Shown here in pieces: positions 3,443 to 64,000 of a DNA stretch of 64,000 bases. The notes beneath the pieces were generated by a model. It was not told the origin of the DNA. It did no database searches and saw only the letters and a list, made by a program, of their open reading frames with translations. Source of the DNA: Marchantia polymorpha subsp. ruderalis (taxonomy: Eukaryota; Streptophyta; Marchantiopsida; Marchantiales; Marchantiaceae). Position 1 is the stretch's first letter; each line of letters begins with the position of its first letter. The position numbers and the translations under genes are program-made. The stretch covers positions 22,824,001 through 22,888,000 of the forward strand of contig AP031358.1 of assembly GCA_037833965.1 (NCBI GenBank), given 5' to 3'.

Positions 3443-6400
3443 TTATTTTTTGCTAGAAAACAAGTAGGCCAAAATCGTAGCACCAGTAAAAGCCAGAATG
3501 CTGGAGACAGGTTTTCCTGACCAGCCATACCTGTCTGTATGATTCGGACCCTGTGGCATCCGAGAAACAGGAGGATTTTCTACGCGTGACGAGACCTGCA
3601 AAAGTCCATGCCCGTGGCCTTGGGCCACCCCCCTGTCACTGGAGCTCGGCCCGGAATGGGCCGCAGACTTTGACTTCTCCATCGCCAAGCTCTGCTCCAG
3701 CTCCTTCGCTCTCTCCTGAACCGCAAGGAGCTGCTGCTCCAACTTCTTGAGAGCTTCATTGGAGCTCGAGGTGACCTTCTCCAGCTCTTTCTCCGTCGAG
3801 GACTTGGTGGACTCCAGCCTCGTCTTCTCGCCCATCAGATCCGCATACTTCGACTCCGTGGCTTTGATGGACCTTTGCAGGTCGCCCGTGCGAGCCTTCA
3901 CCGCCGTCAGCTCTGCCTCGGTCGCAGATTTGGCCTCGGTCAGCCTCTTCTTCTCGCCCAGCAGATCTTCCACCTGGGACTCAGCCCTCTTGATGGATCC
4001 CTCGAGCTCCACCATGCGGGACCTCGCCTTTCCGAGCTCCGCATCGACTTGGGACTTGGTGTCCGTCAGCCTCGCCTTCTCGCTCGTCAGCTCTGCCACT
4101 TGAGCTTGAGTGCTGCTGATGGACTTTTGCAGCTCCAGGACTCGAGTCCTGGCTGCTCCCAGCTCTGCCTCGGTAGCCGATTTCCCCTCAGCCAGCCTCG
4201 TCTTCTCTGTCGTCAGCTCGGCCAGTTGGGACTGCGAGATCTTCAGAGATTTCTGCAGTTCCTGAATGCGAGACTGAGCCTTCTGGAGCTCTTCCTCAGT
4301 CGAGACCTTGGCCTCGGTGAGCCTGCTCTTCTCTCCAGTCAGGTCGGAGATTCTCGTTTCAGCCTTCTGGACTGAAATTTGCAGCTCGACGATGCGAGCC
4401 TTGCCGGTGCCGAGCTCCTTCTCGGTCACAGCCTTGGCCTCGGTCAACTTGGTCTTGTCCTTGTTCAGGGCCTCGATTTGGGCCTGTGAGCTTTTCACCG
4501 ACGACTGCAGCTCGTTGATGCGAGATTTTGCTGCGGCGAGATCTTTCTCGAGGGATGCTCGTTTGGTCTGCAGCTCGGAGACTTCGAGCTTCAGAGAAGC
4601 AGATGTTTCGATCTCCTTCTGGAGCTTGCGAGTGGCGTCCTGTGCCGAGCTTTTCGCTCCTTGCAACTCGAGCTCCAAGCGGGATACTTTGCTTTCGAGA
4701 CCGGCGGCCTTGGCCATCTTTTGCCAATTGAGCCCTGTCTTCAGAGAGGCGGCCTGATTCTTCTCAGATGCGAGCTTCGCACTGAGCTCGGCCTTCTCCT
4801 GGTCCAGCTTGCCCGTGCGCTCAGACTGCACAGACAGAGCATGCTCCAACTTCGCGTCCTCCTTCTTCAGGGTGGCCGTCTCTTTCTCCAAGCTGGATAC
4901 CGAATCCTTGAGCTTAGAGTTCTCGCTCTCGAGATCCTGAACCATGTTACCCAGCGACTCGAGCTTGGTGAACAAATCCGAGTTCTCCTTGTGCAGCTTG
5001 GCCGAGAACTCCGAGGAGCTGGCCACAGATGTCTTCAACTCCTCCTCCAATTCGTTCCTTTCCGCCTGGAGGCTGGCCAACTTGCTTTTGAGCTGAGCGT
5101 TCTCATCCTTGAAGCTGGACAAAGAATTCTCAAGACCTTCGACCTTTGAGCTGAGGTCCGAGTTTTGATCATCCAAAGCCCTGACGCGATCGGCAGCACT
5201 GGCGAGCGATTGCTCCAGTTTGGAGCTCTCCTCCTCCAACTTGTTGCGTGCTTCTTGCAGACTGGCAAGTTTGTCTTGGAGCTGAATGTTCTCGCCCTGG
5301 AGAAGTGTCACTCGTGAGCCATGAGTTTCGAGTTTGGCGCTGAGCTCCGACTTCTCCTTGTCCAGTGACCCTGAGCGCTGAGTGGCCACTGCCAGAGACT
5401 GTTCCAATTCGGTGAACTCCTCCTCCAGCTTGTTCCTGTCCGACTGCAAGCTAGAGATTTTCTCCTTGAGGTGCGTGTTCTCGCCCTCCACAGCAGATAA
5501 CTTGCTCTGGAGAGTTTCAATATCGGATTGCAAATCCGCTTTGTCCTGATCCAATTTCCCTGAGCGCTCGGATGCAGCTGCCAGAGATTCCACCAACTTC
5601 GACTTCTCCCCTTCCAGCTTGTTTCGTTCAGCCTGGAGGCTGGAGAGTTTGTCGTTGAGCTGGACATTCTCCGCGTGCAAAGCCGATCCCCTGGTTCCCA
5701 AAGCTTCAAGCTTCCTCTCCAGCTCCGCCTTCTCCCTATCTAGTTTCTCCGTGCGGTCCGTCCAATCGGCCACCTCTTGCTCTAATTTGGACCCGGCGTC
5801 TTCCAAGTCCTTCTTCTCTGCCTGCAGTCGAGCGAGTTTGTCCTTGAGCTCTGTGTTCTCGCCCTCTAGACTGACGACCCTGCTTCCGATGGTCTTCAAT
5901 TCGGTATGCAGTTCCTCCTTCTCCTGGTCGGATTCCTTGGACCGCGCCAGGGCGATAGCCAGACCTTGCTCCAACTTGAGCCCCTGCTTTTTGAGATGAG
6001 ACTTTTCTGTCTCTACACTCTCGATCTTCTCCTTGAGCTCGATGTTCTCACCGTCCAGATCAGAGTACCTGCTCGCTAGACCATCGAGTTCTGACTGCAG
6101 TTTCGATTTCTCCTCATCCAGTTTCTTGTAGCTCTCAGTTGCAGAAGCTAAATCTGCTTCCAACTTCGTCTTCGCTTCTTCGACACTGGCTTTGTCCGTT
6201 TGCAGGCTCGAGTGCTTGCCTTGGAGGCTTTGGAGTTCTGCCGTCAGTGCAGACTTCTCCTCGTCCAATTTCCTCGAGCTCTCGGAGGCGGCAGCCAGAT
6301 CGGTCTCGAGCTTTGCCCTGGTTTCTTCCAAACGGGCTTTGTCTGTCTCCAGGCCAGCGACTTTGCTCCTGAGCTCGGCAATGTCACTCTCGAGACCCGA

Positions 6401-9400
6401 AGCCTTGCTTGAGACGGTGCGGATTTCCGCCAGCAGGTCTGCCTTCTCCTGCTCCGACTTCTTGGAAAGCTCCGATGCAGAAGCCAGATCCTTCTCCAAT
6501 TTGGCCCCCTTCCCTTCCAGATCGGCCCTGATGCTCTCGAGGGAAGCGAGTTTACTGCCCAGAGTGGCCTTCTCCTCCTGAGCCGTGCTTTTGAACACAT
6601 TGAGCTCCTGGATCGCATTCTTCGCCTCGGACAGTTCCTTCTCGATCTTCTCTTTCGTCTGCTGCAGAGTCGAGTGGGCACTCCTGAGACCGGAATGAGT
6701 TTCTTTCTCCACATGGAAGTCCCGATCTACAATCTGATGCTTGTCCACAGCAGCTGCGAGCTCTTTGCGCAACTCGGCGATGGTTGCCTCAGATGCCAGG
6801 AGCTTGGCGTTCAGGTCGCTCGTTTGGCTATCCAAGCTCGCCACTTTGGCCCTCAGCTCCTGGTTTCGCTTCTCGAGCTCGGCTGTGCCGTTCACGGCAG
6901 CCTGCAACTTGCTCTCGAGCTGGTGCTTCTCCTGCGACGAGACAGCCAGCTGAGACTCCAGTTTTTCGGCTGCGTCTTTGGCTTTCGACAGCAGGTCCTG
7001 TGATCGAGCCTCCGCCTGCTGCTTCTCCTGCTTCGCTCCGTCCAGCTGCGAGCGCAGTGCGTCGGCTGCGCTTTTGGCCTGCGCAGCATCACCTTGTGCC
7101 TTGGTCTCCAATTCCGAGTACGACTTCTTGGCCTCCGCCAGTTGGGAGGCCAGAGAGTCCGCAGACATTTTGGCTTCCCTTGCCATCTGCTGCGCCATGG
7201 CCAGTGAGTGACTCAGATTCGAAACCTCCACCGAGAGGTTCTCGATCTCCTGCGCATCGGGTGTACTTTTGTGTTTCGGCTCGAGCTCATCGTCCTGTTG
7301 AGAAGCAGAGGGTTACGAGAAATAAATCTTCAAAGACCAAATCAGTCTTCGGAAGTTGATACAAATTCTGCATTGAAGGTCTGAAAGATTTAATATCCAG
7401 CCTATATATTTGAAAACTCGAAGGATGTTGCTCTTGTGTAGCGCAAAAATGTCAATGATGCAACGACGCCCATGAATGACAACTGCCAACAGTCGGAAAC
7501 TTCTAATCGTGATTTTTCGGCGTTGGTATATACAAACTTATCGACACACGAATCACTTAGACGAACGGATTTAGTCATTTACTGAGAGATGTTGATCTCC
7601 CTGATGTGGTGCCTTCGGTACCACATTTCTAAAACCTTGATATGACCACCACTGAGTACAGAAAGCAATTGAATTCAAACGAAGTACCCATAAAGACACT
7701 CAATATATGGCTTTGGGCTACGAACATAAGCTCTCTTGTTTTACACTCGTGCCTCAGTCCAGCTGTTTCATGCAGGTTGTCAAATAATGCAAAGGGAGGG
7801 CAAACGATTCAGTATAATGGTTAATTCTAAAGAAGAGCTCGAAGGTGTTAAACAGGGGTACAGAAGAAATTATTGTTCGTTATGACAACATCAGCATCTG
7901 AGATCGCGAAGAGATTGCTGGCAGAAAAACTAAAATCGGATCGAATGTGAGCTAAGGACGAGCAGGAAAACTGATTGCCACTGGAACTGTCTTCTCATAG
8001 TGCAGTTTGCATCTGTGAGCCAGTCCAATCTGATTTCCGAATCTTCTCCCCACAACATTTCTGCATCTCGAGGGAAAGAGAGAATGTGGAACTCACCGTT
8101 GTCATCATCTGGGGGGGAGTTTGTTGGAAAAGAACTGGCGTGTACTCTTGCAGATTGTCGTCCACCGTGGGCTCTGGGAACCATCCCATGGCGAACTCGC
8201 GCTCGTCCATGATTTGAAAAGCGATCGACATCGAAACCAAGCCCCTCTGTTGCAATTCTCCCCCTTTCAGCTCCTCAAAAACTGGAAAGTCCTTCTTCTC
8301 CACCATCCAGTGAGGCGTGCCACTGACAAGTCTCGCCAAGTTGGGAATCCTGTGGAATATCGGACCACGATCATGATCAGACAAAGCCATATCCTCAGCT
8401 TCATTTATACGTAATGATCTTTTCTCGCTTCGTTAGTCCCAGCTGCTAAAAATTTTCTTCGTGAACGATTTAAACCGACGGCTTTTCAATGCTGGGAAAA
8501 AAACAGCACCAGGGAAACAAATTCACTTCTCAAAACCAGCAAAAATTTGCTCTCCAGTATCTATGGGGAGGCACTTCCTCTACTGATCAGTAGAATCGAG
8601 TCATACCTGACTTTTCCCATGTCGAAGTCCTGCCTGAAATTGTTCCTATCGTAGATTTTCACTTCTAGAGTATTGATGGAGTCATAGTCCTTGTTCTTAT
8701 CTGAAGTCTTGCTGCTGAACAACTTCTTGAAGCCCCTGCTGCTATCGGACCTGATGCTGTTCGACTTCTCCAGATGCGGCTGATCTCCAGGTAGTCGTCG
8801 AATGGGAAAGGTGAAATGTTGGTTCCACTCGGGAGAGGACCCGGCATCTGCACGTTCATGGCAGAAGCAATCAGATTTGTCCTTACGACGATCTAAGCTC
8901 AAATTTTCGTAGAAACATCGATTTCGCTCTCTTTAGTGCAAACTTACATCCCATCACGAGTTCAATTTTGAGGCTGAACATCGCAAATTCTGCAATAATC
9001 TGAACCGACGAAGCAATTGCAGGAACAGAATCAAAGCTGCGGAAGTACCTTGCATCGTTCGGCTCCGAGGTGCTTCTCGGCCATCAAAACTGATGATCGC
9101 ATACGGATCAGCCCTTCCTGTGAACACAGGAAACGAAAACTAGTCAGATCCCTCGGCGATCTCGTGCCTCTCATCGCTAACCTGGAATGAGATTCTCGAG
9201 AGCGAATCATTAGAGGATTTCAACACTGTGAAGTGAATCTCGTCACGATACAAAATCAAATAGAAATTCGAGGAAGGAGAGGAATCAGCTCGTCTTGTAC
9301 AAACCTGGTCTGATGGCATCTCGGGGCTTGATATCTCGGGCATAGTACAAGTTCACGTGGAGCAGTCCACTGGGAAAGATGTCCACTGGCTCGCCATGGG

Positions 9401-9976: not shown

Positions 9977-10094
<118 letters not shown>

Positions 10095-24092: not shown

Positions 24093-24342
24093 AGACGGAC
24101 GTCGAATCGGGCTCTTCGCAGTCTGGTCGCATGCAATTTTCGGTCATTCGATCGATCGCTAGGTGACGAAGTTCTGTACTGGAGAATCTATGGTGGGAAG
24201 GGGAAATCTAATGGTGCTCAAGACGGACGTCGAATCAGGCTCTTCACAGTCTGGTCGCATGCAATTTACGGTCATTCGATCGATCGCTCGGTGACGAAGT
24301 TATGTACAGGAGATTTTATGAGGGGAGTGGAAATCTAAGGAT
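24093..24342. repeat. 128-bp tandem duplication at the 3' end of the germin-like gene
   Basis: Copy 1 starts at 24093 and copy 2 at 24221, both with agacggacgtcgaatc, followed by a shared stretch containing ggtcgcatgcaatt and ggtcattcgatcgatcgct. The copies differ at scattered positions. Copy 2 runs through the gene's TAG stop codon at 24335-24337, so the repeat comprises its 3'UTR and the last coding bases. Confidence 0.9.
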
Positions 24343-25678
24343 GGACCGATCCCGACACGGCGCTGACTCCGTGGAAGAGTGAGCTCAGCACTTTCTGATC
24401 GATGCCAAACGATTTCTCGAGCACATCGCTGGGAATTTTGGGGTCGGAGTCGAGGAGACTGGTGGCGATCTGAGACACTCCGGGGTTTTGGCTGCTGAGG
24501 AAGGCGATGGCGAGGGCGCGGCCGTTCCCGCTCTCCGTCTGGAAGTGCACCAAGCCTCGGGGAAAGACGAAGAGATCGCCGGCCTCCAAAGTGTTCTCGA
24601 AGAGCTTGTTCGTCGTGTCCACGAAGCCGACGTCGATCGTCCCTTCGACGACGAAGAGCAGCTCCGATGCTCGAGGATGAACGTGCGGCGGGTTGACGCC
24701 CCCTTTGCTGAAATCGATCCGAGCCGCCGAGACTCCGAGCGTGTTCAGGGCCGGGAACTGGCCGACGGCGGCGGGAGTCACCACGGAGCCTAGAGCGTTG
24801 TTCACCTTGGGTGAATTCTTCAGCCCGCCGAATGTGAAGTCCTTCGCGTCGACTTTGGCCACATCCTTGCAGGGCAGAGAGCCGTCACTCGTGGAGTTCG
24901 CTGCGCACATGAAGAAACAGTTTCGCAAATCCGGTCACAATTTCAGAAGCAATTTCAGACACGAAGTTAGCTGCTGCTCGAGAAAAGACTCCCTTGAAGT
25001 GGACCCATAATTCCTCACCCCATAACACCTTCCTCACCACTACCTCAGAAATACATCAGAATGAATGATTTCAAGCAGGTACTGTTATCATAATGGCCAC
25101 TGACGACAGCAGAATGTGTTTAAGGTAGAGCTAAGCGGATAATCATTCAACTTGAAGCAATCGGCTGTAACTATTACTACGAGAAGTTCCCAACAGATTG
25201 CAGCTCACAAATCAGGAGGGGAAAGATTCAGAATAACCTCACAGCTGAGGGAGCGCAACGATGAGTTCTACGACTTGTTTCAGACGATTTGTGAGCTTTG
25301 AGATAACGATCAGAGAGAAACCGTATCCTAAACCGAAGTAGCATAACGTCGCAGTTATACTTTCAACATGATTCAGACCGTCCAGTATACGATGAAGGTG
25401 TAGATGACGGCCCAGATGAAAGTCTGTGAGTGAGGCTTCTGTGAGGGTGGCGTACCTGCACTTGCGTTATATGCTCCCATCTTGGAAGGATCGTATCCTT
25501 GTTTTTCCCAGTCGCCGACCTCGGTGCCAGTCTCCCAGACGTGCATGTCATGCGGCAACACACCGACGCAGAAATCTGTCAACCCGTCGGGATCATCGCA
25601 GCTCACGAATTTTTCCTGGCCGATCAAGCACACGGCCGCAATCGCCACCACCACTCTGAACGTCCTCAACGTAGCCAT
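24335..25678 (-). CDS. GLP: Germin-like protein (secreted cupin), 2 exons
   Basis: Exons are 25564-25678 (115 nt) and 24335-24900 (566 nt), with a 663-nt GT-AG intron. The join gives DFCVANSTSDGSLPCKD and a frame of 681 nt (226 aa), the usual germin-like length. An N-terminal signal peptide (about residues 1-27) predicts secretion to the apoplast. The two conserved cysteines (37 and 49) should form the germin disulfide. Germin box 1 carries the metal ligands His111, His113 and Glu118 (NPPHVHPRASE) and box 2 carries His157 (GDLFVFPRGLVHFQTESGN), so the Mn-binding cupin site is complete. Family members act as oxalate oxidase, superoxide dismutase or wall proteins; the activity cannot be read from the sequence. 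Reading through the donor gives a spurious extension of exon 1. All key residues are intact. Confidence 0.93.
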
Positions 25679-27295: not shown

Positions 27296-27367
27296 TGAAC
27301 TCGACGTGAATCGAACACGCAACCTTCTGATCTGGAGTCAGACGCGCTACCATTGCGCCACGAATCC
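27296..27367 (-). tRNA. tRNA-Trp(CCA): tRNA-Trp (anticodon CCA)
   Basis: The minus strand folds as a full 72-nt cloverleaf with no intron. The acceptor stem is GGATTCG paired with CGAGTTC and the discriminator base is A. The A box matches TGGCGCAATGG. The anticodon loop CTCCAGA carries CCA, and the B box is GTTCGATTC. Compared with the plant tRNA-Trp I know, acceptor pair 5-68 appears changed from C-G to T-A, which keeps the stem. CCA is not encoded, as expected for a nuclear gene. Confidence 0.95.
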
Positions 27368-29354: not shown

Positions 29355-30600
29355 CATCCATTCAAGAGCAATTTCCGTTCCTCTCATACAATTGACAGTC
29401 CTGTGCATATGATTTGAAAAGATTAAAACCTTTTTAAGATTTTGGAGTAGGAAGAATCGAGGTGCGAGCAAATGACATTATATCCATTCACGAGCAATTT
29501 GTGAATATGATTCGAAAAGATGAAAACGTTTTTAAGCTCGTATACTTAGAATTTCTTTTCGAAGACGTACATTCAATCCGTGTCCGTGTCCACCTGCTGT
29601 TGATCTTGCTAGATGTATATGCATGTGCAATATTTTCCAAGAGGATAAGTATTTGATAGTATCAAGTAGTAAGGTCATAGAAGATGCGTATAAGGCTGGT
29701 GATGAGCAGAATGGAATTTCCATAGAGAAAAGTTTAGTAATCTCCGGCAAAAGTCTTTCAATCTGCGTTCGCTACTGCTAACATATTACTTCTAGCTTGT
29801 TTATCTTGCTGGATGTATTTGCATGTGCAATATGTTAACTTTTTTGAGTACCAAGTATTTATTAGTATCAAGCAGTGGATCATAAAGGACGCACCTAAGG
29901 TCGATGATGGGCAGAATGAAATCTCCATAGGAATAAGTTCAATAACCTCTGACAAAAATACTTCAAAAGTGATGGATCCTAACATGTTGAGCATTTATGC
30001 AACATTTTTTCTGGCAGTCACATTACAAGTGGATGACATGATTGAATATGTTCTAACAACTGGTACGGTGGTCAAGCTTTTGGATTATTTAAGAATCGGC
30101 ACTCTTGGTGAAATTAAGATGAAAACCGTGCTTGCTTTAAAAAAATAGATCTCTTATAAGTGATAAAGCAAGTGAAGAAGTACGTGGCAAAGCAAGAATA
30201 CATTTGGATTCATTGTGTACGGAGAAAAAACCGGAGTTCTCAGAGAGTTGAAATCAAGAAGGTTGATACGAAGAAAACCAGCACTTTGAGAGAGTTGAAA
30301 TTAAAAAGTTTGGTGAGAGGAGTAGTGAGCGTGGAGCTGATGTAAACGAGAAATGGAAAGATGAAGAAGGACTTGTGGAGGAAAAAGATGATAGAACCAC
30401 TATTGAAGCTTTCAATCAAAACGGACAGACTTATGACGCCAACAAGTATGTAATGGTAGGTGAAGATAAGACACGGCGCAAAGACAAAGGGGACTTAAAG
30501 GAAAGAGTAATAGTTAGCAGAGAGTGGTTTGGACACATTTGTCCATTAAGAGAAAAAATGGATATAGAGCTCGGTGAAGATAATAGACGTAGTTAAAACA
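29355..30600 (+). pseudogene. DCAF1: Decayed DCAF1 (VprBP)-like gene fragment with internal exon duplications
   Basis: Plus-strand pieces resemble the N-terminal helical-repeat region of plant DCAF1, the substrate receptor of CUL4-DDB1 ubiquitin ligases, in the expected order. HEQFVNMIRKDENVFKLVYL (29489-29548) corresponds to the GNIIR-NDEFFELI segment. FISIKQWIIKD (29855-29890) matches the SIKNWV segment. MLSIYATFFLAVTLQVDD and VLTTGTVVKLLDYL, then LGE (29980-30115), match the YATGLLA / EDVLTSGLxxKLMRYLR-LGE block. A charged stretch follows, as in DCAF1. Frames are broken, no start or complete exon set exists, and two segments are duplicated: 29370-29445 resembles 29478-29545, and 29600-29760 resembles 29800-29960. 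The match is from memory of the plant family and needs a protein search. It is probably a truncated duplicate rather than a working gene. Confidence 0.55.
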
Positions 30601-30795
30601 AAGGGGATTTTAAGCAAATAGTATTAGTTAGCATAGAGTGGTATGGACACATTTGTCCATTGAGAAAAAAAAATAGAATGTAGAGGTAGGTGAAGATAAT
30701 AGACTTTGTAAAAGTGAAGGGGATTTAATACAAAGAGTAATAGTTAGAGTATTGTGGTAGGACACATTTCTCCATTGTAAAAAAAGATGAAGAGG
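30459..30795 (+). repeat. Diverged tandem repeat, about 115-bp unit, 3 copies
   Basis: Copies start at about 30459, 30573 and 30689, each beginning ggtgaagataa. Each contains aaaggggatt/actta, agagtaatagttag, and ggacacattt(g/c)tccatt followed by an A-rich run. The first period (114 bp) is a multiple of three and the first copy is an open frame; later copies carry indels. It lies in the charged tail of the DCAF1-like fragment. Confidence 0.85.
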
Positions 30796-51930: not shown

Positions 51931-54900
51931 CGTGCAACCTTGCCGGCCTGCGGTGTTTAAAAAATAATAAGAATAAAGAATAAAAAATCTAAAAATGCCT
52001 CAAAATTGGCAGCCTATTTTAAAAATGCATTATAAAATGCCTATTTTAAAATAATTTAATATCTATGCACCACTAAATCTATCATTGCATATGTATCTAT
52101 TTCAATCAACATGTTACACATTTATTGCCATATCATATGTGTATTCCACACACAAAATTTACCTACATAATTATTTGTCTTTATTGTATAATAAAATCAT
52201 ATTCAACACATTGATTGACTGCAAATTTTGAATAATTTTGAATGGAAATGGGAAAAATTATATGAGAAACAAATCTTTGAAGTATTTTCATCCATCATGA
52301 AACAGAGAAAGTTATTCTTGAAAAATAATTTCAAATATTTATTCAGGTAAACAAGTAACAATGCTTAAGAAATTTCAAGGTTTTAGAATTTTTCTTAATA
52401 TTATATTTTTCTATAATTTAGAATTGAGAAAATTTTCAACAAATGATTCACTGTTTATTATATAAGATAAAAGAACAAAGTTATTTAGTTTGAAATAATC
52501 AAGAAATAAAAATTCAAAATCAAGACAACAAAAAAATTACTTGATGATATGTCATTGTAAAAAAAATTTGTTACTGGATCCATCAAGTTTTGTTTTATCC
52601 GATGCGATCCCAACGACAATCACAGTCATCGGTGTTCTTCTATCGACCCAATGATGACAATATGTATGATTGAGCAGCAACATGCAAAGGAGTAACAAAC
52701 TAGAGTGTGCACGAGTTGGAGCAGAGACCTCATATCAAAAAAACTTTTGTTTCAGTAAGAACTTATGAAAATTGAAGAAAAACTTTGAGTGCTCACGCAC
52801 AAATCAATTATGAAGCTTTTTTGTATTGGGCTTATGCAAGATGAAGCATGCATCATTGTTGGAACAAAATTTAAGAGCAGCAAACTGATCGAATTGTACA
52901 AGAGCAGTGGCCCTATCCATCATATGGTCCTAAAGAAGAAGGTGCAATCAATATATGGCTAGCCTATATAGATACTACTAATTTGAACAAGGCCAAAATT
53001 ACTTCGTATGACCGTCGGCCCTATAATACGCATGATTTTTTGTTAGCATTCTACTTTGTCAGCTTGTATTCCTGTAGCTAAACTTGTGAATTAATTTTAG
53101 TATAACACTTACCACTCTCACTTCTCTCATTGAAGCTTTTCTTATGAAATGTTTGGTAATCTAATGATATCATTTTCATGATGTCATTTTGTCCAAAACT
53201 TCATGCACTAATTTTTTTGAACTTCACTTCATAGCATTTATTTGTGCCAGATTCCATTCACTACATGCTTATCTCATCATTTAAACATTTTGCAACCTAA
53301 AACTATTATGACTTCAATTTTTCAATATGCTTACATGTAACTATATGTTTATACTTTCATGCTTCAAAATCCTTGAGCTGTGGAAATTAGAACTATATTT
53401 AGTTCTTCTTGTTTTCATTCCATGAAGAATGTATTTCATTTGTTTGTTCATCATCTATTACTCTTTTCAACATATTTTGGTATTTTCACAATCGACTTAT
53501 AGTCTCTACTTTTGGATTGGAACAAAGGTTTTAGTGCTAGTTCACATTACAGGTGAATTTACTATCTTACTCGTTACGTATTGATCAAAATTCTTGTTTA
53601 ATAATCAAGAGTACTTGCTAAAAAACAACAAAAACAAGATTATTGAGTCCTTTGAATCTTGCAAGGTTGGTTGTGTATCTAATCTTCCAACGTCTAGATA
53701 AATTATAATAATAATTTTTTTTTATTATAATTGAAGAGAATCTACAGGACTAGGTTTAAATTGGTCATGTGAATCTGGCAGATGAAACATAATAATTGAC
53801 ATTCCAAAAATTCTAATGTTTTGGATAAATTTTCCATATACCAATGTCATGAGTTGCCATAATGCTTGAATAGTAATCTAGACAACTTGATTTTTTTGGT
53901 GTAGTTAAAGAGCTGCTTTCAAAACTGATAATTAGATGACCTGCGTTCATGGGTTTGACACCCCATAGTACGTCGCTTGGAAATTTTCATTCTTCTTTGA
54001 ACAAGACAAGCACGGTTTTTAATCTTACTTATCAATTTGATACATGGTTCTCTAGTATACATCTTCTGTGCATCTTTCGTGACTTCTTTTTATCACACCC
54101 TCAACGTCTTGATGTTTCTTTTGACTTTTCAGACTTCAGGTTTTTTTAGGGTTTTGAGTATCAAAATCGGCAACCTTACAACAGTAATTGTATGATATTC
54201 ACTTGTACGCAAAGCTCAAAGTGAAACGATACTTGTATTCTGCTTCCTTTGAAATAAATGACAAATGTTTCAACACAAGCATGAAAATTGACCCAGAGAG
54301 ATCTTTTACAAAAAATTATCTAAAGGCAACTATTTTTTGTTGGCAAATCATCTCCACAATGTAGGTGCATGGAAGTTGAGACAATATTGATTTATTAGAC
54401 ACGAGCTTTGTTGTCCTGTAGTTGCGAGTCGGCTCACGAAGTTTAGACACTTACTATATTTAGACGTGAAGTTAGGGTTCGGGTCATGAGGGGTATACAG
54501 TCGGGGACGGCTCGAAAAACGTTAGTTCTTCGAGTTGAGCCTAGAAGCGTTGGGAGCGTAGAGCGATTTTCCCCTTTGCGTCGACCTGGATTCTCCGAGT
54601 GTGGAGTGGGTTGGGCTCGACTCATGTTTGTGACGGTGACGGTTTGGTTCCAGTAGGGTAATCGACCGACGGGAATTCCAGTGGGGAATCTCCTGTTTGT
54701 TTCACTCGAAGAACTCGTTTACATACATCGAATCCGTCGGTGTGACGTTGTCAAGTCAGTTTGTCTAATGTAGAAGATCATCACGTTTCACGATCAAGGT
54801 TTAGAACTTCACATCGATGAGTTTCAAGAGTTCGTACAGTCTCAGTCAATCTCGAGAGTTCTTACAGTCTGCGTCCATCGTTGGTTCAATCATCATTGTC

Positions 54901-55760
54901 GGAAGAGCAAAGTGGGTGTGTTTGATTTAGGGTTCGAGCGCGCTACGTGTAAGGTGCAGTCCAAAAGATTTTGAGGTCCTTCGAAGGTAGCGGAAGTGGA
55001 GCTTAGATGAAGAGTTCATCGGTTAAGCTTGTGTTGGAAGTGCAAAGGAAACTGAAAGCGAAGGATTAGAGTTCTGCGAAGAGAACTTTGTCTCTTGAGT
55101 GGTATTGACGTGGTGGTGGTCGAGGAGCGTTGTAGAGGCCCTGCAGCAGAAGAAACATCTTTCGGAAGGCACTCTTCCGCTTTGCTTGCTGCGCCTTTCC
55201 ACCAAGTTACTGTGGTTCGAACGAGGAAAGAAGCGATCGAGCGATCGATCGATCGTTGGCCCGACGAGCTCTGTGCATGTGCCAGTTTCTGTTTTTCCTG
55301 TAGGTCGACGACGAAAGCCCGAGCCGATCGATTGGTGTCGTGTAGTCTTTGGCTTTCTCCGCACAATTTCCGGACACGAGACATATTGGCATTGTCGAGT
55401 GAGTGAGTGAGAAAGAGAGAGTGAGCTCTTGTGAGGAAGTGCGGGTCGCATCGAAGTCTACGCACGAGGATTCGGTTGTGCGGGTTTGTTACGCTTTTTC
55501 ATATGAATGAGAGTGATCGTGGATCGTGAGGGGCTGGCCGTCTTTTCGTAATTTGCCGGTCGGTTGGCGCTACGCGGACTAGAACAGTTCGGTGGGCAGA
55601 AGAGCCAGAGCCGAGGCCACTGTCGCTCAGGGAGAGGAGAGTGGGCGATTTACGGGCTGCTTCGGCGACCGGTTAATTCTTCTTCTCATCGGGGAGGTTG
55701 GGTCAGAAAAGCAAACGGCGTATCGGTGGAACGCAAGAGAGATGAACGAGAGAAGAAGTG
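51931..55760. other. Gene-poor region: AT-rich to about 54.4 kb, then mixed-composition sequence
   Basis: The AT-rich part holds only short frames. From 54.4 to 55.76 kb composition rises towards that of the retroelement, and several overlapping frames occur on both strands (around 55.0-55.5 kb) without family motifs. This could be flanking DNA, an older insertion, or part of the retrotransposon if its LTR begins further left than I propose. Confidence 0.4.
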
Positions 55761-57545
55761 TGTGATGCCCTAAGTAGGTTTGGTGGCTTCTGTGGTCCTT
55801 GCAGTGAGTGTTCTCTCTGGACTTGAGTTCTTTTTCAATCGTCCCTCGTTAGTCGAAGGTGGAACAGAGACCTAAATCGGAACCTCGATTGATGAAATGA
55901 GGGACCAAGGAATCGAGTATGTAGGCTAGATTCTCAGTCGAATTCTCAGTCTGTTTCTTTACGCGGGAAAGCTGCGCTATTTCTCCCATTCGTAGTAAAG
56001 CCAGCGAAATTTTGAAAACTGGAGGTTTAACCCAGCCCGGAGTACTCGAGTGTTGCGCCTACGGACTGCATGCCTCATGCAATATAGTAGGACAAAGGAG
56101 TAAGCATTTTGACTAGCTGGCTGGGCACAAGTTGACTTGTCGGAGGGATAGATACGTTGTTACGTGCACTGTTTTGCATGTTTCCTATCTCCCCTTCCTC
56201 CTGTCACACGTGCAGAACTTTATTGTTTCTACAAGCCCTTCGTTTCTCTTCCCGGATGGCAGTTTCTGGTTCTAAAAGAGTGGCCTAGTGTCTCGTTCTG
56301 TTTCCCTCGGGGTTTGTCTAGTTGCATCAAGTGGCGACTGAGGTTTTCCTCATCGCCCACCGTCCAACCCGTTCCTCAATCTGTTCCAGGAACCAGTATA
56401 TACTTTGTATAGTAGGTTTCTTCGAGATGAGCACGGTATCTGATATGGGAGACAATAGATTCAGCGCAATTGTGTGAATATGTGCGGTAACACAACGACC
56501 AATTTTGAGACCCCGTTTTAATAGTTGACATCTATGGCGCAAGGGACATACAGAGATTGGCGATCATTTTCTTCTGTACAGAGGAGAATTAAAGTTGGAG
56601 GTCAACCTACGGGAACGGCAGGTTGTTAGTAACTTTTTGCCCCAGACTTACTTCTGAAGTACAAAGTTTATCACGGAGCTAAGGGCAGACGGACGGAGGT
56701 CGAGACAAACACCGGCGCCTTAGTGACGTGAGACCATTTTGGGTTTATTTCACCTGTTTATTTAGACACAAAATATTTCACCTCCTCACACTCTGCCTCA
56801 GATTTACAGAAATTGGTGCAGTACCGGCAACAGACGTTTTTTTGGTTGTATAGGTAGTCCGTGTGTGATCGTCGTGTAGAAGCTATCTACAGAGGCAAGA
56901 TCCTTAGTAGAGAACAGGAAAAATGCACACATGGACTTTGATGATGCTTCTGACGAGGTGAACAGAGTGAATAAAGACTAACAGAAGGTACTGTCAGAGG
57001 ATAATTCGAAGGAGGGAAAAAGACCAGAATCTTCTGTTTTTTTAAATCTGCTATTGGTACCATAGGCACCAAGATTGGGTACCTCCCACCAGCGGGTGAA
57101 CACCACGGTAGAGTTGTCAGATCACTGGAACCGAATGCATAGATCTTTGAGGTGTAAATGGAGGTAACTTACCTTGGTTATGTCGAAGTTGGTTACTATA
57201 AATCTCTCTCTTTCCTAAAATATTTCATGGGATAGGAATGTTTAGTGCCGTTGCTCTCGAATGACTACCTAGATGTTTAGTATATCCATACCTATATCCA
57301 CACGAACTTAGTTCCATAGCGTTTTATAGCTGATCCAGAGAAAATTACGTGTGACTTAGTTTGGCATAGTAGCATGGTGGAATAGTCCAATAGCAGCAAC
57401 CTCCGGTTTGAAGATCTGTTAGGCGAAGATAGCCTATGCAGGTATTTTGATTACGTTCAGTTTTGATAAATACAGTAGTGCTGAGTTTGCAGTAGAAAGT
57501 TTCAAAATCACTAGTTAATGTGAATTTGTTTATACATAGTTCTTT

Positions 57546-57573
57546 AAAACTATTAAAATCTTTTAATAGTTTT
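57546..57573. repeat. Perfect 28-bp hairpin in the retroelement leader
   Basis: Arms aaaactattaaaa and ttttaatagtttt flank a 2-nt centre (tc). It lies about 100 bp upstream of the acidic open frame. A role in transcription or RNA structure is possible but unproven. Confidence 0.9.
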
Positions 57574-57670
57574 TATAGTTGAATTGTTTCTAGTTTTCCC
57601 TACAGATTTAGTTTACAAATATTTGTGAACAATCCTTGCACACAGCGGAGTTTTGACGTGTGAAGAGAAA

Positions 57671-58027
57671 ATGCCGCTTGGTGAGAAAGTGGGAGACAGT
57701 TTACCAGAAATTCAGACAGTGGAGGTCGTCAGTCGCCAGGAACGTGGTCAGGAGCAGGAGGTGACGGTGCAGCCTCAAGTAGAAGAGAATCTGGTAAACC
57801 CTGTTGTGGTAGAAGAAAAAAATTATGGATTAGATTGGGACGAGACACTAGCCGTAGAAAAACTTCTAGAGGAATCCGACCTAGAGTACAGGGTATGTGA
57901 GGATGAGTTACTAGACCTTCCGCAGGATATTGCTGACCATTTGAGAGATGTTCAGTATGTTCAAGACTGTCTTTCAGAAGAAATTCTTGTACTAGAGAAA
58001 TTTCTTGATAGTCTCCCAAAGGATTGA
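57671..58027 (+). CDS. Small acidic open frame upstream of gag, unknown function
   Basis: The first ATG at 57671 opens 118 codons (MPLGEKVGDSLPEIQTVEVV ...) ending LEKFLDSLPKD with TGA. The product is strongly acidic, with repeated Glu/Asp and Leu in a helical pattern (ETLAVEKLLEESDLEYRVCE), and has no motif I recognise. It is in a different frame from gag and ends about 550 bp before the first gag ATG. It lies within the probable 5' LTR or leader. It could be an extra element-encoded protein, a captured host exon, or a chance frame. Confidence 0.4.
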   Translation: MPLGEKVGDSLPEIQTVEVVSRQERGQEQEVTVQPQVEENLVNPVVVEEKNYGLDWDETLAVEKLLEESDLEYRVCEDELLDLPQDIADHLRDVQYVQDCLSEEILVLEKFLDSLPKD

Positions 58028-58575: not shown

Positions 58576-60264
58576 ATGGACGGGATGTACGGGGCTGCGA
58601 AGGGCCCTCGACGTTACTCTGGTGCAGTGGGCACCATTGAGCTTGATGATTTTATTCAGGAGTTCGACACGTGGTGTGATATGTAGTTTCTGCGCAACCC
58701 CACGTTGTTTACACCCTTCTTTGCATGGAAGGGGTTATTCCAGCATTTGGAGGGGCCTCTCATGGACGATTATCATGAGTTTGGGAGAGAGTATGCTGCA
58801 GAGATTGATGCATGGAGACGGCATTGGTCTCCGAACTACTCATCCATTACCCAGGGTGGTGTGGGTACCAGTGGAGCTGCAAGTATCGGCATCAGTGGAG
58901 GTGCGATTAGTAGCATCAGCGAGGGTACCAGTGGAGCAGTTGGCGCAACTGGTACTAGTACCAGTAGCGGTTCGGTTAGCATTGCCGGTGGCAGCACGAG
59001 GGGAGATGCTAGTGGCGTACCTTCGTTTAGCCCCATTCCTGAGTTCTTTCAGAGATTGAGGAAGAATTATCAGGGGGTGAAAACGGAGAAGTTGAGGAGC
59101 CTCCAGGAGTTTGAGCGGAAGACTGGTGAGAGTCTTCGTGAGGCATACACTCGTATGCGACGGCTCATCTCAATTACTCACGGTGTGACTGAGGCACAGG
59201 TTGTCCAGTACTGGTATCGGAGCCTGGACAGAGAGTTGCGGAGGAGAGTGTGTGATGCTACTCTCATGAGCGACTCATCACCCACATTAGCCCATGTGTT
59301 TGCTCTTTCTGAGAAGATTGAGCTTAACATGGTGGAGGAGAGGGTGGTGACGTCTACATTTGCGAGGGACACGACCACTACCTCGCGTATCCCACATAGC
59401 CCAGCACAGTCTCGCCCCATAAGTGGGAGTCGTGGAGGTCATACACGACATCCTTCAGGTCACAGAGAGCATAGTGCGCGGCCATCACTGCCTTCATTTT
59501 CGGGCCAGCCACAGGGACCATCATGTTGGACATGCGGAGGAAGTCATATGAGGAAGGATTGTCCCCAGGAGCGAGAAAGACAAACTCCACATGCTAGGCC
59601 ACAGCCGGCACAGGTGACCTGTGATCATTGTCATCGACCGGGTCATCCTCGAGAGCGTTGCTTTGACCTTCATCCTGAGTTGAGATCTGGAGGTAGAGGT
59701 CGTGGAGGTGATGCTCCGCGAGGCCGAGGTGGTCGAGGTGGCAAAGGTGGTAGAGGTACCGGGGCCATTGAGCGTACCGCAGCGAGTGCTACTTCCGCCA
59801 CAGAGAGCGCTATGGCTGCTCGGATTGAGCAGTTGGAGCAGAGGCTTGCTGCTATGGCTGGTCTGGGGACGAGCACTTCCACATCTTACGAGGGAGAGGA
59901 TTTCTCCTTTTTGGCCAGTGCAGCACAGGTTGAGGCATCAGTTGCAGTGACCAGAGGTGGTGCTCGCACTTCAGAGCCACGTGGTGCGACTGTGGAGTTG
60001 GACCCTCAGAGGGGTGAGGGTGGACGTCAGTCTAAACTTCCCCAGTCCTTTTTGTTGTCAGAGGTGGGTAGCAGTTCATCTATGAGACCTGCACCGCCTA
60101 ATGACACTAGAGTGAGAACTGAGGTTCTTACATCATCTGTTGTGGACACAGACGTGCCATCTAGTGCAGTGATGCAGATGGCCGGTTCAGTCTTGCGATC
60201 TCCATTGTTTTCAGCCACGGAGTTGATAGACTCTGGTATTGATTTGGCCGAGTATTTCGGATAG
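58576..60264 (+). pseudogene. gag: Retrotransposon gag with two zinc knuckles, interrupted by one stop
   Basis: The frame is open from about 58390, with its first ATG at 58576 (MDGMYGAAKGPRRYSGAVGT), a TAG at 58684-58686 and continuation to 60264. The N-terminal part, IELDDFIQEFDTWCDM then the TAG stop and FLRNPTLFTPFFAWKGL, has the Ty3 gag capsid pattern. FERKTGESLREAYTRMRRLI and VVQYWYRSLDRELRRRV follow. A Ser/Gly/Thr-rich insertion (about 58857-59020) separates two capsid-like parts. Two knuckles follow: CWTCGGSHMRKDC (59524-59562, CX2CX3HX4C) and CDHCHRPGHPRERC (59620-59661, CX2CX4HX4C), then an RG-rich nucleic-acid-binding stretch. The gag product should form the particle and bind element RNA. 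The stop fits a CAG-to-TAG change. The next gene lies in the -1 frame. Confidence 0.85.
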
Positions 60265-61238
60265 CAGCCACGTCGTGTGAGCATGGGAGAGTCGCTGCTA
60301 CGAGTGCCGAGATACGTGAGGATACAGTTGAGGACCCATCCTCAACGTCTACATTGTTCGAGGAGACGACTTGGCAGGCCGCAGCGGCAAGGATGGAGTC
60401 CTTACCAGCTCGCCCAGCCATTGATCGCAAGAGTATTGTTCTTGGTGTATGTATGATGGACAACCGAAGTGGTCTATTTCGGTTAGTGAGTTCTACAAGA
60501 CAGGTGTATGTCCCAGCCAGAGTTTTGTTGGATTCTGGTGCACAGCCCTTGATGTTGGGCAAGGCTCCATGCATTAGTTTGGGCATTCGGAGGTCAGAGT
60601 TGGAACCTTGCCCATTCCAGATCCAGACATCCCTCCGTGGCGCTAGCAACAGGTCTTACTTTATGACGAGGGAGAGCATAGCGGTGCAGTTGAGGCATGA
60701 TCACCCTCATGATAGCTCGCAGTTTGGAGTTCGTGCTGTGGTTACATCAGCAGAGCCATATGATGTGCTTGTTGATGGAGTGGTGTTATACCCGATGGGC
60801 TTTCGGATGGACTATTGGACGGAGACTGCCGCATATCGTCCTGGTTGGCAGTCCGGAGATGGACGTCTGAGCGAGCTGCCAGTGAGATTTATTTCTCGGG
60901 ATCGACCTCTTGGATCTTCATCAGCGGTCTTGGCATCTGTTGCGGGTTTTAGCGGAGTGCTTACTTGGCCCGATGACTTGTTGGAGGGGAACATGACTGC
61001 CGACGATACCTCACTCTACGAGGATGTGGAGGAGGTTGTGAGTTTCACAGTAGCGGTGACTTCACCCTTAGATGTTCCACTGTGGAGTTCGTGCCAGGCG
61101 CTACAGTTGGAGGCTGATAGGTTGGTGAAAAAGGCTTGGAGTGAAGCCTCTTTACCAACAGAGCCAGACAGGGCTTCAGCTGATCGGCTAGTTGGTGGTT
61201 CTAGCGCATTGTCTTCATTGGTTACTACACCTATTGCA
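60243..61238 (+). pseudogene. pro: Retrotransposon aspartic protease and linker (N-terminal part of pol)
   Basis: The pol frame is open from 60243 and overlaps the end of gag (60264) by 22 nt in the -1 register, so expression would need -1 frameshifting unless the shift is a mutation. I see no canonical slippery heptamer in the overlap. The protease signature VLLDSGAQPLMLGK has the catalytic Asp at codon 60531, in the pattern of retroviral-type aspartic proteases that work as homodimers. FGVRAVVTSAEPYDVLVDGV and the downstream region match the rest of the fold loosely. About 150 residues of unassigned linker lead into the methyltransferase. This part has no stop codons. Confidence 0.8.
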
Positions 61239-62240
61239 TGGGAGTATTCCTCAGAGGGCGTTTGTTTGCTAGATCTTTTTGGTGGGATCAGCACAGATTT
61301 GGCTGAAGTGTTGCAGTCAGGTATTCTCGTACGGAGATACTTGTATGTGGAGAAGGACGAGACTGCACGTCGAGTCTCTTCACGACATGTTGCACAGTTG
61401 ATGCGGCGTTTTCCTTCGTTGTTGCCGCGATCAGCTGTCCGAGGATTCCAGAAGGCGTTGCCTTCAGACATTTTGTTGCTGGGGGCGTGAGACCTTGACC
61501 GCGTTGGCCATATTGATATGGTGATTGCGGGCTGGCCATGTCAGGGACACACACGTGCTGGACATGGGACAGGGTTGCATGATCCCAAATCTCGGATGTT
61601 TTGGGAGATGATGTGAGTGTTACGTCATCTCCAAGTGCAGCAGACACGTTCTCCAGCATACATTCTGGAGAACGTTCCATTGTTGAGTGACACTCGGGCC
61701 CAGTTGATGGCGAGTGTCCATCAAATCCGAGCATGGATTGGATCAGCAATACTCTTGGATGCTGTGAAGGTTGGATCACGGGCTCATCGTGCACGTTTGT
61801 GGTGGACCAACCTTTTGCCACGTGAGATATTGCGTCATGCCTATGATTCGGTGCAGCGTGATCCTACACTCACCGTTGACAGTATCTTGAATGTTTCCCG
61901 ACACTCTCAGGTAGTGAGAGTTGCTGACAGGTCACATATGGCGTTGATGAACCGCGTAGGTCAGCCTCGGATGGCTTTACCTACATTTGTCAGTTATCCG
62001 GCATCACATGCATATCGTGATGGAGGACCTGGACTACTATGGGACAGTACCCTACATCAGTTTGTGGAGCCCAACGCTGATGAGAGAGAGCGTGCGATGG
62101 AGTTTCTTACTGGTGTGACCGCGGCTTCTTCAGTTTCAGAGGCATCGCGTCATCAAGTTTTGGTCAGGCTATGAACTTGAACTGCTTGACGTGGATTGTG
62201 AGCTTGGGTTTGGCCGAGCAACGCCATTTGCGCGCAGATT
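61239..62240 (+). pseudogene. DNMT3-like C5-cytosine DNA methyltransferase domain inside the retrotransposon pol
   Basis: In the same frame as the protease, the C5-methyltransferase motifs occur in canonical order. Motif I (SAM binding) is VCLLDLFGGISTDL (about 61260). The acidic ribose-binding position fits YVEKDE. Motif IV with the catalytic Cys is VIAGWPCQGHTRAG (Cys codon 61539-61541). Motif VI is YILENVPLL (61659 on). Motif VIII is SRAHRARLWWTNLLP (about 61780), which has the DNMT3-type HRARxxWxN form rather than the DNMT1/CMT QxRxR form. Motif IX is RMALPTFVSYPASHAYR (about 61970). A motif X-like segment (RHQVL, then QAMNLN in another frame) is split by a 1-nt frameshift near 62163. TGA stops at 61488 and 61614 interrupt the domain. 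All visible catalytic residues are otherwise intact. The enzyme would transfer methyl from S-adenosylmethionine to cytosine, perhaps in the element's own cDNA or at its insertion site. Confidence 0.9.
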
Positions 62241-62480
62241 TGAGTGCCTACCGGGACGGTAGTGGCAATGGCTGGGGGCGACAGGCGAGATATTTGTCAT
62301 CCTTGGAGTTTATGGGACGTGACGAAAGGACTTGCCAGAGTTGCAGCCCATGATGTTGGAGAGGATTCTCAGGTGGAGGTGGCTACGAAGGAGGGTACGG
62401 AGAACCCTTCTTTGCAGTGTGTAGCGTAGCAACCATTGACAGTGTCGCCTCCCTCTAGTGTGCCTATGGAGGAGGAATGA

Positions 62481-64000
62481 CAGCCATTGATTGGTTCCCA
62501 GATCACAAGAGGAGAGAGGCGACGATTGACACAATTCCTACGAGACTATAGAAGTTGTTTTGCCTTCAGTATGAAGGAGTTGGGTGCGTTGATTGGACCC
62601 GGTATACGGATAGAATTGGCTAGTGATACGCCAATCTTCCGTCGTCCTTATCGATACAGTGAGATGGAGAGAGATTTGATTCGGAGTAGGACGTTGGACC
62701 TACTGGAGGCTGGACTAGTGGAGTTATCGCATGGTGAGTATGCGTCAGCCACTGTCATGCCGGTGAAGAAGGATGTACATGGCAACTACACGGATATGCG
62801 CATGTGTGGATACTACCGTCCTATCAATCAGCAGACGAAGTCCGATTAGTATGCCATGCCTACACCTGAGGAGATCTTCGATGTGGTGGGACATGCGAGG
62901 ATTTTTAGTACTTTAAATCTTCGGGTTGGATACCATCAGTTGCCAATTCGGGAGGAGGACAAAACCAAGACAGCGTTTTGGGGCGTCAACTCCCACGGCA
63001 AGGATTGTTTGTATCAGTGGCGATTCTTACCCTTTGGGTTGAAGAATGCACCTGCCGAGTTTCAGAGGGTTATGGACAGAATCCTAGCGGGGCTGGATTT
63101 TGTCAGATGTTACATTGATGATATCTTGGTGTTTAGTGACACTGTGGAGCAACACCAGATACACTTGCAGATTGTGTTTGAGCGATTGAGGGCTCATGGT
63201 TTGAGGTTACATCTTGGGAAGTGTAAGTTCTTCCAGGAGAAGGTTGAGTACTTGGGTCATGTGATATACCCAGGTGGTTTAGGAGTTCAGCAAGCAAAGG
63301 TGGAGGCTATTGCACGCATCTCTCGTCCCACGGATGTGAGTAGAGTTCGTGCATTTATGGGTTTAGCGAACTACTACCGGAGGTATGTGAAGGAGTTCAG
63401 TGCTATAGCCAAGCCTTTGAACCAGTTGCTGAAGTCAGATCAGGAGTGGCAATGGGGAGATGAGCAGGAGAGAGCTTTTGTTGAGCTCAAGGCCAGGTTG
63501 GTGGCCGCTCCCATCTTGAGGAGACCTATCAGAGGTCGTCCATACCAATTGCACACTGATTGGAGTATGTTGGGACTTGGAGCGGTGTTGACGCAGCGTG
63601 ATGATGAGGGCAAGGAGTGTGTGGTTGCGCACGCTAGTCGTTCGAACAATGCAGCGGAGTCGCGGTATAGTTCGTACGAGGGAGAGTGCTTGGCAGCGGT
63701 GTGGGCTGTGGCGCACTTCAGGTGTTACTTGTTTGGTACGCAGTTCACCCTTGTTACTGATCATCAACCGCTCAAGTGGTTGATGGAGTCCGACAAGCTT
63801 ACAGGGAAGCTTGCACGGTGGGCTCTCATCTTACAGGAGTACGACTTTCAGGTGGTGCATAGACCCGAAGTTGCGAACCTAGATGCCGATGGTTTGAGTC
63901 GAAACCCATGCACTAGCCAGAGGATGACACTGGAACTAGATGGCATGGTGAGGTTGACGAGGAGATGGTGCCTGGTTGGCATGCATCTGCCTTCATGTGT
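62481..64000 (+). pseudogene. pol: Ty3/gypsy reverse transcriptase and RNase H, running off the window
   Basis: The RT begins after the TGA at 62478 and shares the protease/methyltransferase frame. It contains IFRRPYRYSEMERDLIR, then a TAG at 62847 in the position of TKSDxYAMPTPEEIF, followed by an open frame to the end of the window. The motif A segment reads STLNLRVGYHQLPI, with Asn (AAT, 62916-62918) where Ty3 RTs have the first catalytic Asp. Motif B area is FLPFGLKNAPAEFQRVMDRI, and the catalytic YIDDILVFSD starts at 63111. RNase H shows QLHTDWSMLGLGAVLTQ, SSYEGECLAAVWAVAHFRCY and LVTDHQPLKWLMESD, then RWALILQEYDFQVVHRP, typical of the end of Ty3 RNase H. The integrase is not in the window. 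Confidence 0.9.

Follow-up and report, generated by a model that had tools for sequence, protein, structure and literature searches.

A Ty3/gypsy-type retrotransposon family with its own DNMT3-type methyltransferase in Marchantia polymorpha

The stretch of DNA analysed here, called the window throughout, comprises 64,000 nucleotides (nt) of Marchantia polymorpha subsp. ruderalis (assembly GCA_037833965.1, contig AP031358.1; C9:22824001-22888000). From position 54412 to beyond its end, on the plus strand, it holds a copy of a retrotransposon in which a DNMT3-type cytosine methyltransferase (DNMT) domain lies between the aspartic protease and the reverse transcriptase (RT). The copy is best explained as the decayed remains of one element from a Ty3/gypsy-type family that is abundant, has recently been active and would make its DNMT3 methyltransferase at the level of gag, methylate its own complementary DNA (cDNA), prime its own reverse transcription, target chromatin through a PHD finger and capture host messenger RNA (mRNA). 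The probability of this explanation, taken as a whole and resting on comparative sequence analysis, is put at about 0.62.

Intact copies show that the DNMT is a maintained part of the element. The genome searched comprised 241 Mb in 9 contigs, and the counts from both genome-wide DNMT searches are lower bounds. The search with profile PF00145 gave at least 123 scored matches, at least 24 of them in open frames of 1351-1365 amino acids (aa), and a protein search with one intact DNMT domain gave at least 113 scored matches from 672 first-look candidates. Every one of these 113 was at least 88% identical, 67 were without a stop codon, and 26 lay in stop-free frames of 1348-1365 aa. Selection on the domain is purifying, with a ratio of nonsynonymous to synonymous substitution (dN/dS) of 0.11 between two subfamilies (dS 0.30; RT 0.07, integrase 0.06, gag 0.16). 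The preliminary description, made from the letters of the window alone, had proposed a DNMT3-like methyltransferase built into a Ty3/gypsy polyprotein between protease and RT and had named as its test the presence of the same protease-DNMT-RT arrangement in other genomic copies; many copies have the arrangement. A chance insertion is excluded because of the at least 113 DNMT matches, the 26 stop-free long frames and the purifying selection; chance motif matches and a chance nested insertion were likewise ruled out by copy number and by the arrangement common to the copies. The family has been recently active and several copies are young, since the two A repeats (A1 and A2) of a copy are about 99-100% identical in four of six pairs (100, 99.7, 100, 98.6 for the window copy, 99.0 and 93.4%, the last with 17 gap positions).

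In the window, motifs I, IV, VI, VIII and IX of the methyltransferase occur where they had been described, in the frame starting at 60243: DLFGG ending at 61286, PCQ within WPCQG at 61533-61547, ENV at 61668-61676, HRARLWWTN at 61785-61811 and SHAYR from 62004. The motif X remnant claimed with them (GQAM, 62162) is present as well, in a different frame from motifs I-IX. A profile search had been suggested as a further check, and PF00145 matched the DNMT domain of two other copies (8.4e-10 and 2.8e-10), but a Pfam scan of the window copy's own pieces found RT and RNase H and not the DNMT. The best solved-structure matches were DNMT3A (8e-9) and DNMT3B (1e-7), followed by HaeIII (4e-4), DNMT2 (1e-3), DRM (3e-3) and HhaI (0.04). 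Judged by these structure-entry matches and by the tree described below, the catalytic domain is closest to DNMT3, the branch to which motif VIII had first pointed, and it fits a DNMT3-like fold. Catalytic residues are kept in nine of nine copies of this genome, and among 90 relatives the motif IV Cys is present in 86, the motif VI Glu and Asn in 87 and 88, and the two arginines of motif VIII Arg-x-Arg in 84 and 83; methyltransferase activity is predicted. No Pfam match to the ADD or PWWP companion domains of animal DNMT3 was found in the scanned pieces of the first reading frame, the PHD finger lying in the second. A host DNMT3 gene, intron-bearing and separate from the element DNMTs, is located at C6:12459429-12459752 (L001).

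Nine full copies were read as adjacent pieces. Open reading frame (ORF) 1 (1355-1365 aa, stop to stop) encodes gag, protease and DNMT and ends at TAG in all nine, so that the DNMT shares the gag frame and lies upstream of an in-frame UAG. ORF2 begins at the codon after the TAG, in the same frame, and encodes RT, RNase H, a DDE integrase and a PHD finger; it is open over 1042-1045 aa in eight of the nine and broken in c6_30. The order of protease, DNMT and RT given earlier was thus correct, but not their placement in one uninterrupted frame, as a TAG stands at 62427 in the window and in frame in all nine full copies. Pfam recognised the DNMT in both scanned ORF1 pieces covering motif IV, and RT, RNase H, H2C2, rve and PHD in each of three ORF2 proteins scanned, which gave no match to the tyrosine recombinase PF00589 and carry the rve integrase instead. 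The gag match stayed under the cut-off (15-16 bits against 24.1), the protease was recognised by its DSG motif, and the order gag-protease followed by RT-RNase H-DDE integrase is that of Ty3/gypsy elements (Metaviridae). The finger at the integrase end matches those of CHD4, MLL3/4 and DPF3. UAG CAR YYA is the stop-codon readthrough context of tobacco mosaic virus (TMV) type, and the ORF1/ORF2 junction lies in this context, with TAG followed by CAACCA in nine of ten copies read, the window copy included; readthrough is predicted. Among 91 genomic sites with exact flanks, 89 had TAG, one CAG and one TAT, a count which required intact flanks and shows the state of little-changed copies, not selection.

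The element opens with one repeat A (293 bp) and, in nine of ten 3' ends read, closes with B-A-B, where B measures about 118 bp; variants at the 3' end are an extra A-B in c3_23, a shortened last B in c8_12, a further B downstream of c1_1 and one B alone in c6_30. The B-GC-A joint in context, GACAGCTGTC, has 110 exact occurrences in the genome and none in a reversed control. A 4-bp duplication surrounds the segment from A1 to the last B in all seven copies with flanks printed (by eye), within the 4-6 bp target-site duplications of Ty3/gypsy elements, and the termini are TGTC...GACA. The two identical long terminal repeats (LTRs) at the ends which characterize Ty3/gypsy elements were not found, and an ordinary two-LTR element was ruled out, since the 3' end reads B-A-B and the 4-bp duplications lie outside A1 and the last B. 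The earlier designation as a plant-type Ty3 element therefore stands for Ty3/gypsy type, but not for an ordinary plant Ty3 element, given the split repeats and PHD-tipped integrase. In eight of eight A1 repeats, the 10-12 nt that follow find their exact reverse complement within A itself, and a TATA-like box lies upstream of that internal stretch in seven of the eight (by eye). This exact self-complement suggests self-primed reverse transcription; priming by a transfer RNA (tRNA) is not supported, the bases after A being self-complementary and a comparison with a tRNA set not having been made.

The window copy begins after the target-site duplication TTGT (54408-54411), the second copy of which follows the last repeat at C9:22890258-22890261 (L022), outside the window. 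Repeat A1 (54412-54704, plus strand, 293 bp, starting TGTC; partner A2 at L022:2847-3139) contains at 54524-54534 the sequence AGTTCTTCGAG, the exact reverse complement of the putative primer-binding site CTCGAAGAACT at 54705-54715, with a TATA-like GTATACA about 30 nt upstream. The parts that follow are all on the plus strand. The variable leader (54716-57600) is succeeded by a small leader open frame (57671-58027, 118 aa from its ATG) that recurs in several copies and gave no match in a Pfam scan. The gag region (58576-60264) has two zinc knuckles (59524, 59620) and is broken by TAG at 58684; protease (LLDSGAQ at 60525-60545, DSG at 60531) and linker follow in a shifted frame at 60243-61253. 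The broken DNMT domain (61254-62210) has TGA at 61488, 61614 and 62172 and its end in another frame, and the TAG between DNMT and RT (62427-62429) is followed by CAACCA, of the UAG-CAR-YYA type. The RT and RNase H frame (62430-64000; YIDD at 63111, RNase H to about 63905) is broken by TGA 62478 and TAG 62847. The copy is dead through TAG 58684, the frame change near 60243-60264, the three TGA codons of the DNMT and others. Other copies indicate by comparison that its integrase and PHD finger are situated past the window end, as is B1-A2-B2, which was found in L022, ending at C9:22890257.

Leaders between primer site and gag vary widely among 15 copies compared, although some sublineages share one. 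The genome was searched with seven of the 15 leaders, and Pfam was run on ten leader frames. Host cDNA leaders were noted in the window and in L009, L015, L017, L019, L023 and L025, with own sets per sublineage. A single gene at C7:8.67 Mb, which has an AAA-ATPase domain (PF00004, 9e-10), is represented by six blocks in the leader of c1_1, a gene at C6:26.13 Mb by four blocks in that of c6_30, and a gene at C8:0.42 Mb with a Sec63 domain (PF02889, 6e-35) by six blocks in that of c6_25, which also has two-block matches to two further places; c8_12 has two blocks of one place and c9_14 three, more diverged (78-86%). Because seven of eight block joins in the c1_1 and c6_30 genes fall on CT...AC, that is, on GT-AG introns of the opposite strand, these fragments represent spliced host mRNA in antisense; one of the five c1_1 joins, and also the single join in L036, were not resolved as CT-AC by the script. 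The c6_25 fragment is antisense by its Pfam match on the minus strand. The c6_8 leader matches a nucleoside transporter (PF01733, 8e-5, below the family cut-off) in one contiguous 1.3-kb block with no intron evidence. All four orientable cases (c1_1, c6_30, c6_25, c6_8) are antisense. The window leader is unlike most of the 14 others compared and has three pieces matching other places, with no intron evidence: 55218-55741 is 96.6% identical to C4:5158039-5158569 (L038), 55756-56159 is 98.3% identical to the minus strand of C3:28443683-28444086 (L039), and 55863-56454, which overlaps the latter piece, is 97.6% identical to C6:23356914-23357504 (L040). If RT jumped to mRNA while making the plus strand, antisense fragments are the trace to be expected; alternatively, sense fragments carrying poly(A) signals may have been selected against. 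For the difference between the c4_2 and c6_25 leaders template switching was rejected, because the C4 leader is split into two parts that lie about 18 kb from each other, a picture that an insertion would give.

The best named protein matches to the element DNMT are from M. polymorpha itself, with up to 94-96% identity. Two DNMT protein searches gave 61 and 347 proteins (the best 120 of the 347 were examined), and the named relatives among the matches listed are from M. polymorpha, M. paleacea, Riccia sorocarpa, Calypogeia fissa, Sphagnum and Klebsormidium nitens, the remainder being mostly metagenomic. An integrase-PHD search gave 168 proteins, the best 120 of which include Volvox reticuliferus, Tetrabaena socialis and Haematococcus lacustris, and the DNMT is present in 42 of 119 new integrase-PHD proteins. 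Among 286 proteins compared, 25 are gag-protease-DNMT, 14 RT-RNase H-DNMT-integrase-PHD, 4 RNase H-DNMT-integrase-PHD, 26 DNMT-integrase-PHD, 3 DNMT-RT-RNase H-integrase-PHD and 19 RT-RNase H-integrase-PHD; because these domain orders differ, two element types are distinguished, one with the DNMT before RT (bryophyte type) and one with the DNMT between RNase H and integrase. The second architecture, with PHD, was seen in metagenomes and EukProt sets (P0187, P0225, P0232, P0251, P0259, P0260, P0274, P0276). The Volvox and Tetrabaena proteins are DNMT-integrase-PHD with no RT in the gene model, and the tree groups both with the second type; P0208 and P0240 were noted with the second architecture as DNMT-integrase-PHD proteins. 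Some annotated relatives are gene models, the ends of which prove nothing. P0032, a "DNA cytosine methyltransferase" from a metagenome-assembled genome of the bacterium Candidatus Obscuribacterales, shares 48% identity with the element DNMT; its probable source is a eukaryotic retroelement binned by mistake. In IMG/VR the search matched a single locus, L029; it is a phage-like contig whose C5 methyltransferase differs from that of the element.

In a tree of 54 rows, a branch (96/94) separated the 48 element DNMTs from three host DNMT3 rows; P0091 and P0093, first assigned to group K, fell with group C, and P0179 fell outside S. A second tree, without P0249 and P0059 (long rows), P0179, P0091 and P0093, set each of the groups S, K and C apart by a branch of its own (89/97, 99/97, 100/99), with three host DNMT3 rows and a tool warning that long host branches meet. 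In the RT-RNase H-integrase tree, 12 rows with DNMT between RNase H and integrase grouped together with one DNMT-less row, P0278 (99/100). A single old DNMT capture with one relocation is the simplest reading and not a proof. The competing history, in which the Klebsormidium-, bryophyte- and chlorophyte-type DNMTs were taken separately from host DNMT3 genes, is distinctly less likely but deserves consideration: approximately unbiased (AU) tests holding one group with host DNMT3 rejected none (p 0.21 for S, 0.09 for K, 0.14 for C), the host side consisted of the three rows to which the long-branch warning applied, and the position of the DNMT within the polyprotein varies. Against it stand the 96/94 branch of the best tree, a common ending of the EP-ADERERAMGF kind, and A-B-A-B repeats that fit the published description of the Klebsormidium element. 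The preliminary description had named methyltransferase-bearing retrotransposons of dinoflagellates and charophyte algae as independent captures; the precedent is correct (PMC5890265), whereas the Klebsormidium case looks, by sequence, like the same lineage as the present element rather than an unrelated capture, with separate captures left unrejected by the AU tests.

According to the preferred explanation, most ribosomes would stop at the UAG, so that the DNMT would be made at the gag level and packed into the particle, and a minority would read through to give RT-integrase. The element RNA would be reverse transcribed from its own folded-back 5' end, and the packed DNMT3 would methylate the new double-stranded cDNA, in the particle or in the nucleus; the incoming copy would thus arrive with cytosine methylation, resembling native DNA. 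The PHD finger may steer the integrase to chromatin via the histone H3 tail, and a jump of RT onto packed host mRNA in plus-strand synthesis would leave antisense, intron-free fragments between primer site and gag. Methylation by the element of its own DNA, also suggested in the preliminary description, is what we infer from these features. Several observations weigh against this explanation. DNMT-less elements generally transpose well, and the benefit of a DNMT is not obvious. Within the larger subfamily the DNMT has dN/dS 0.23, with little divergence behind the figure, and other parts scatter (pre-RT 1.2, RT 0.70, PHD 0.59); the tail after the DNMT has 0.70 even between subfamilies. CpG depletion is weak, observed/expected being 0.68-0.77 in element pieces against 0.82 in the whole window, element included. 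In c5_12, one of the ten copies read, the sequence UAG CAA CAA departs from the full readthrough motif. The Klebsormidium domain showed no activity in yeast, a result its authors call inconclusive in the available text (PMC5890265).

The DNMT might act on packed genomic RNA, or on the insertion site or host genes in trans, rather than on cDNA. This is unlikely, although expression at the gag level would yield enzyme in excess of the needs of a single cDNA, the PHD finger could recruit the complex to chromatin, and RNA methylation is discussed for long interspersed nuclear elements in passages of de Mendoza et al. (PMC5890265). Slightly less likely again is self-restraint, in which early silencing of methylated new copies would limit host damage and prolong the life of the family. 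The window copy has an excess of C-to-T (G-to-A) changes, 17 at 451 CpG sites and 46 at 2345 other C/G sites, compared with 11 T-to-C (A-to-G) changes at 2545 A/T sites, as expected for copies methylated in all contexts; however, host methylation would produce the identical pattern, and a self-limiting trait is hard to maintain by selection among copies. The broken window copy, taken alone, would suit a host methyltransferase carried without use or a chance nested insertion, which is very improbable in view of the 26 stop-free full ORF1 frames among 113 scored, the dN/dS of 0.11 between subfamilies, the catalytic residues kept in nine of nine copies, and gag-protease-DNMT or protease-DNMT proteins in other bryophytes. 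A more far-reaching reading, which is quite improbable, is that a green-plant-wide lineage joins an epigenetic writer (DNMT3), a reader (integrase PHD) and an antisense host-mRNA leader that could pair with donor mRNAs and feed small RNAs, so that sublineages would trans-silence their own host-gene sets with their own methyltransferase.

Elsewhere in the window, an open frame of 1289 aa with coiled-coil-like composition (3446-7312, minus strand), an open frame resembling, by eye, a germin-like (cupin) protein (24338-24934, minus strand) and a tRNA-Trp gene (27296-27367, minus strand) were noted, together with a perfect AG dinucleotide run at 9981-10091 and a tandem repeat at 30457-30791 (114-bp unit, 2.9 copies).

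Why a mobile element should carry an enzyme that silences mobile elements has been a question since 2018, based on algae that are hard to manipulate. M. polymorpha is a tractable model plant, and with numerous copies, many intact and several young, it offers a good test case; the element is also a rare combination of split repeats with a DDE integrase, and its sequence naturally records the capture of host mRNA in reverse transcription. A DNMT3 in a Gypsy element is already known (Klebsormidium, 2018), and no land-plant report was found in the literature searched. Searches of the openly licensed literature yielded no report of DNMT-bearing elements in liverworts or mosses, of Gypsy integrases ending in a PHD finger, or of DNMT-bearing elements in which a UAG precedes RT, which is weak evidence of absence. 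Term searches of the available text of PMC6453930 and PMC9985172 gave nothing on the Klebsormidium DNMT element, and PMC12344493, in the part available, repeats the Klebsormidium case, with the LTR elements called Copia. New here are the gag-frame DNMT before a readthrough-type UAG, the PHD-ended integrase, the split repeats with 4-bp duplications, the self-complement after the 5' repeat, the host-cDNA leaders, and the relatives in other bryophytes, Klebsormidium, volvocine algae and metagenomes.

The closest known system is KnitGypsy-Dnmt3 of the charophyte K. nitens, a Gypsy element with a DNMT3 (de Mendoza et al. 2018, PMC5890265, in part). It likewise has its DNMT directly before RT (K. 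nitens protein P0058), reported purifying selection, and A-coding region-B-A-B repeats as in a DIRS element, its side of the last comparison coming from the legends of Figs 4c and 1e of that paper. The present element differs in having a land-plant host and belonging to an abundant family, and it has the DNMT in the gag frame before a UAG, an integrase PHD and host-cDNA leaders, KnitGypsy-Dnmt3 being known here from partial proteins only. SymbioDIRS-Dnmt3 of dinoflagellates, treated as an independent capture in passages of PMC5890265 and compared by description only, also carries a DNMT3 in a retrotransposon polyprotein with split repeats, but has a tyrosine recombinase where the present element has a DDE integrase. 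Split-direct-repeat elements of the PAT/DIRS kind have the same A-coding-B-A-B repeats, whereas the present element has a DDE integrase (rve) and 4-bp target duplications. In self-primed LTR retrotransposons of Tf1 type the sequence after the 5' repeat complements the RNA 5' end; the present element resembles them in that a segment at the likely RNA 5' end has its exact complement, about 11 nt long, behind the 5' repeat, such priming being putative here, and differs from them in its split repeats, DNMT and PHD. LTR elements that capture host genes, such as maize Bs1, similarly contain fragments of several host genes, and template switching has been proposed for chimeric LTR elements (PMC13317346, in part). 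In contrast to Bs1, the capture zone of the present element lies between primer site and gag, its sublineages have their own fragment sets, and the fragments are intron-free where checkable and antisense where orientable.
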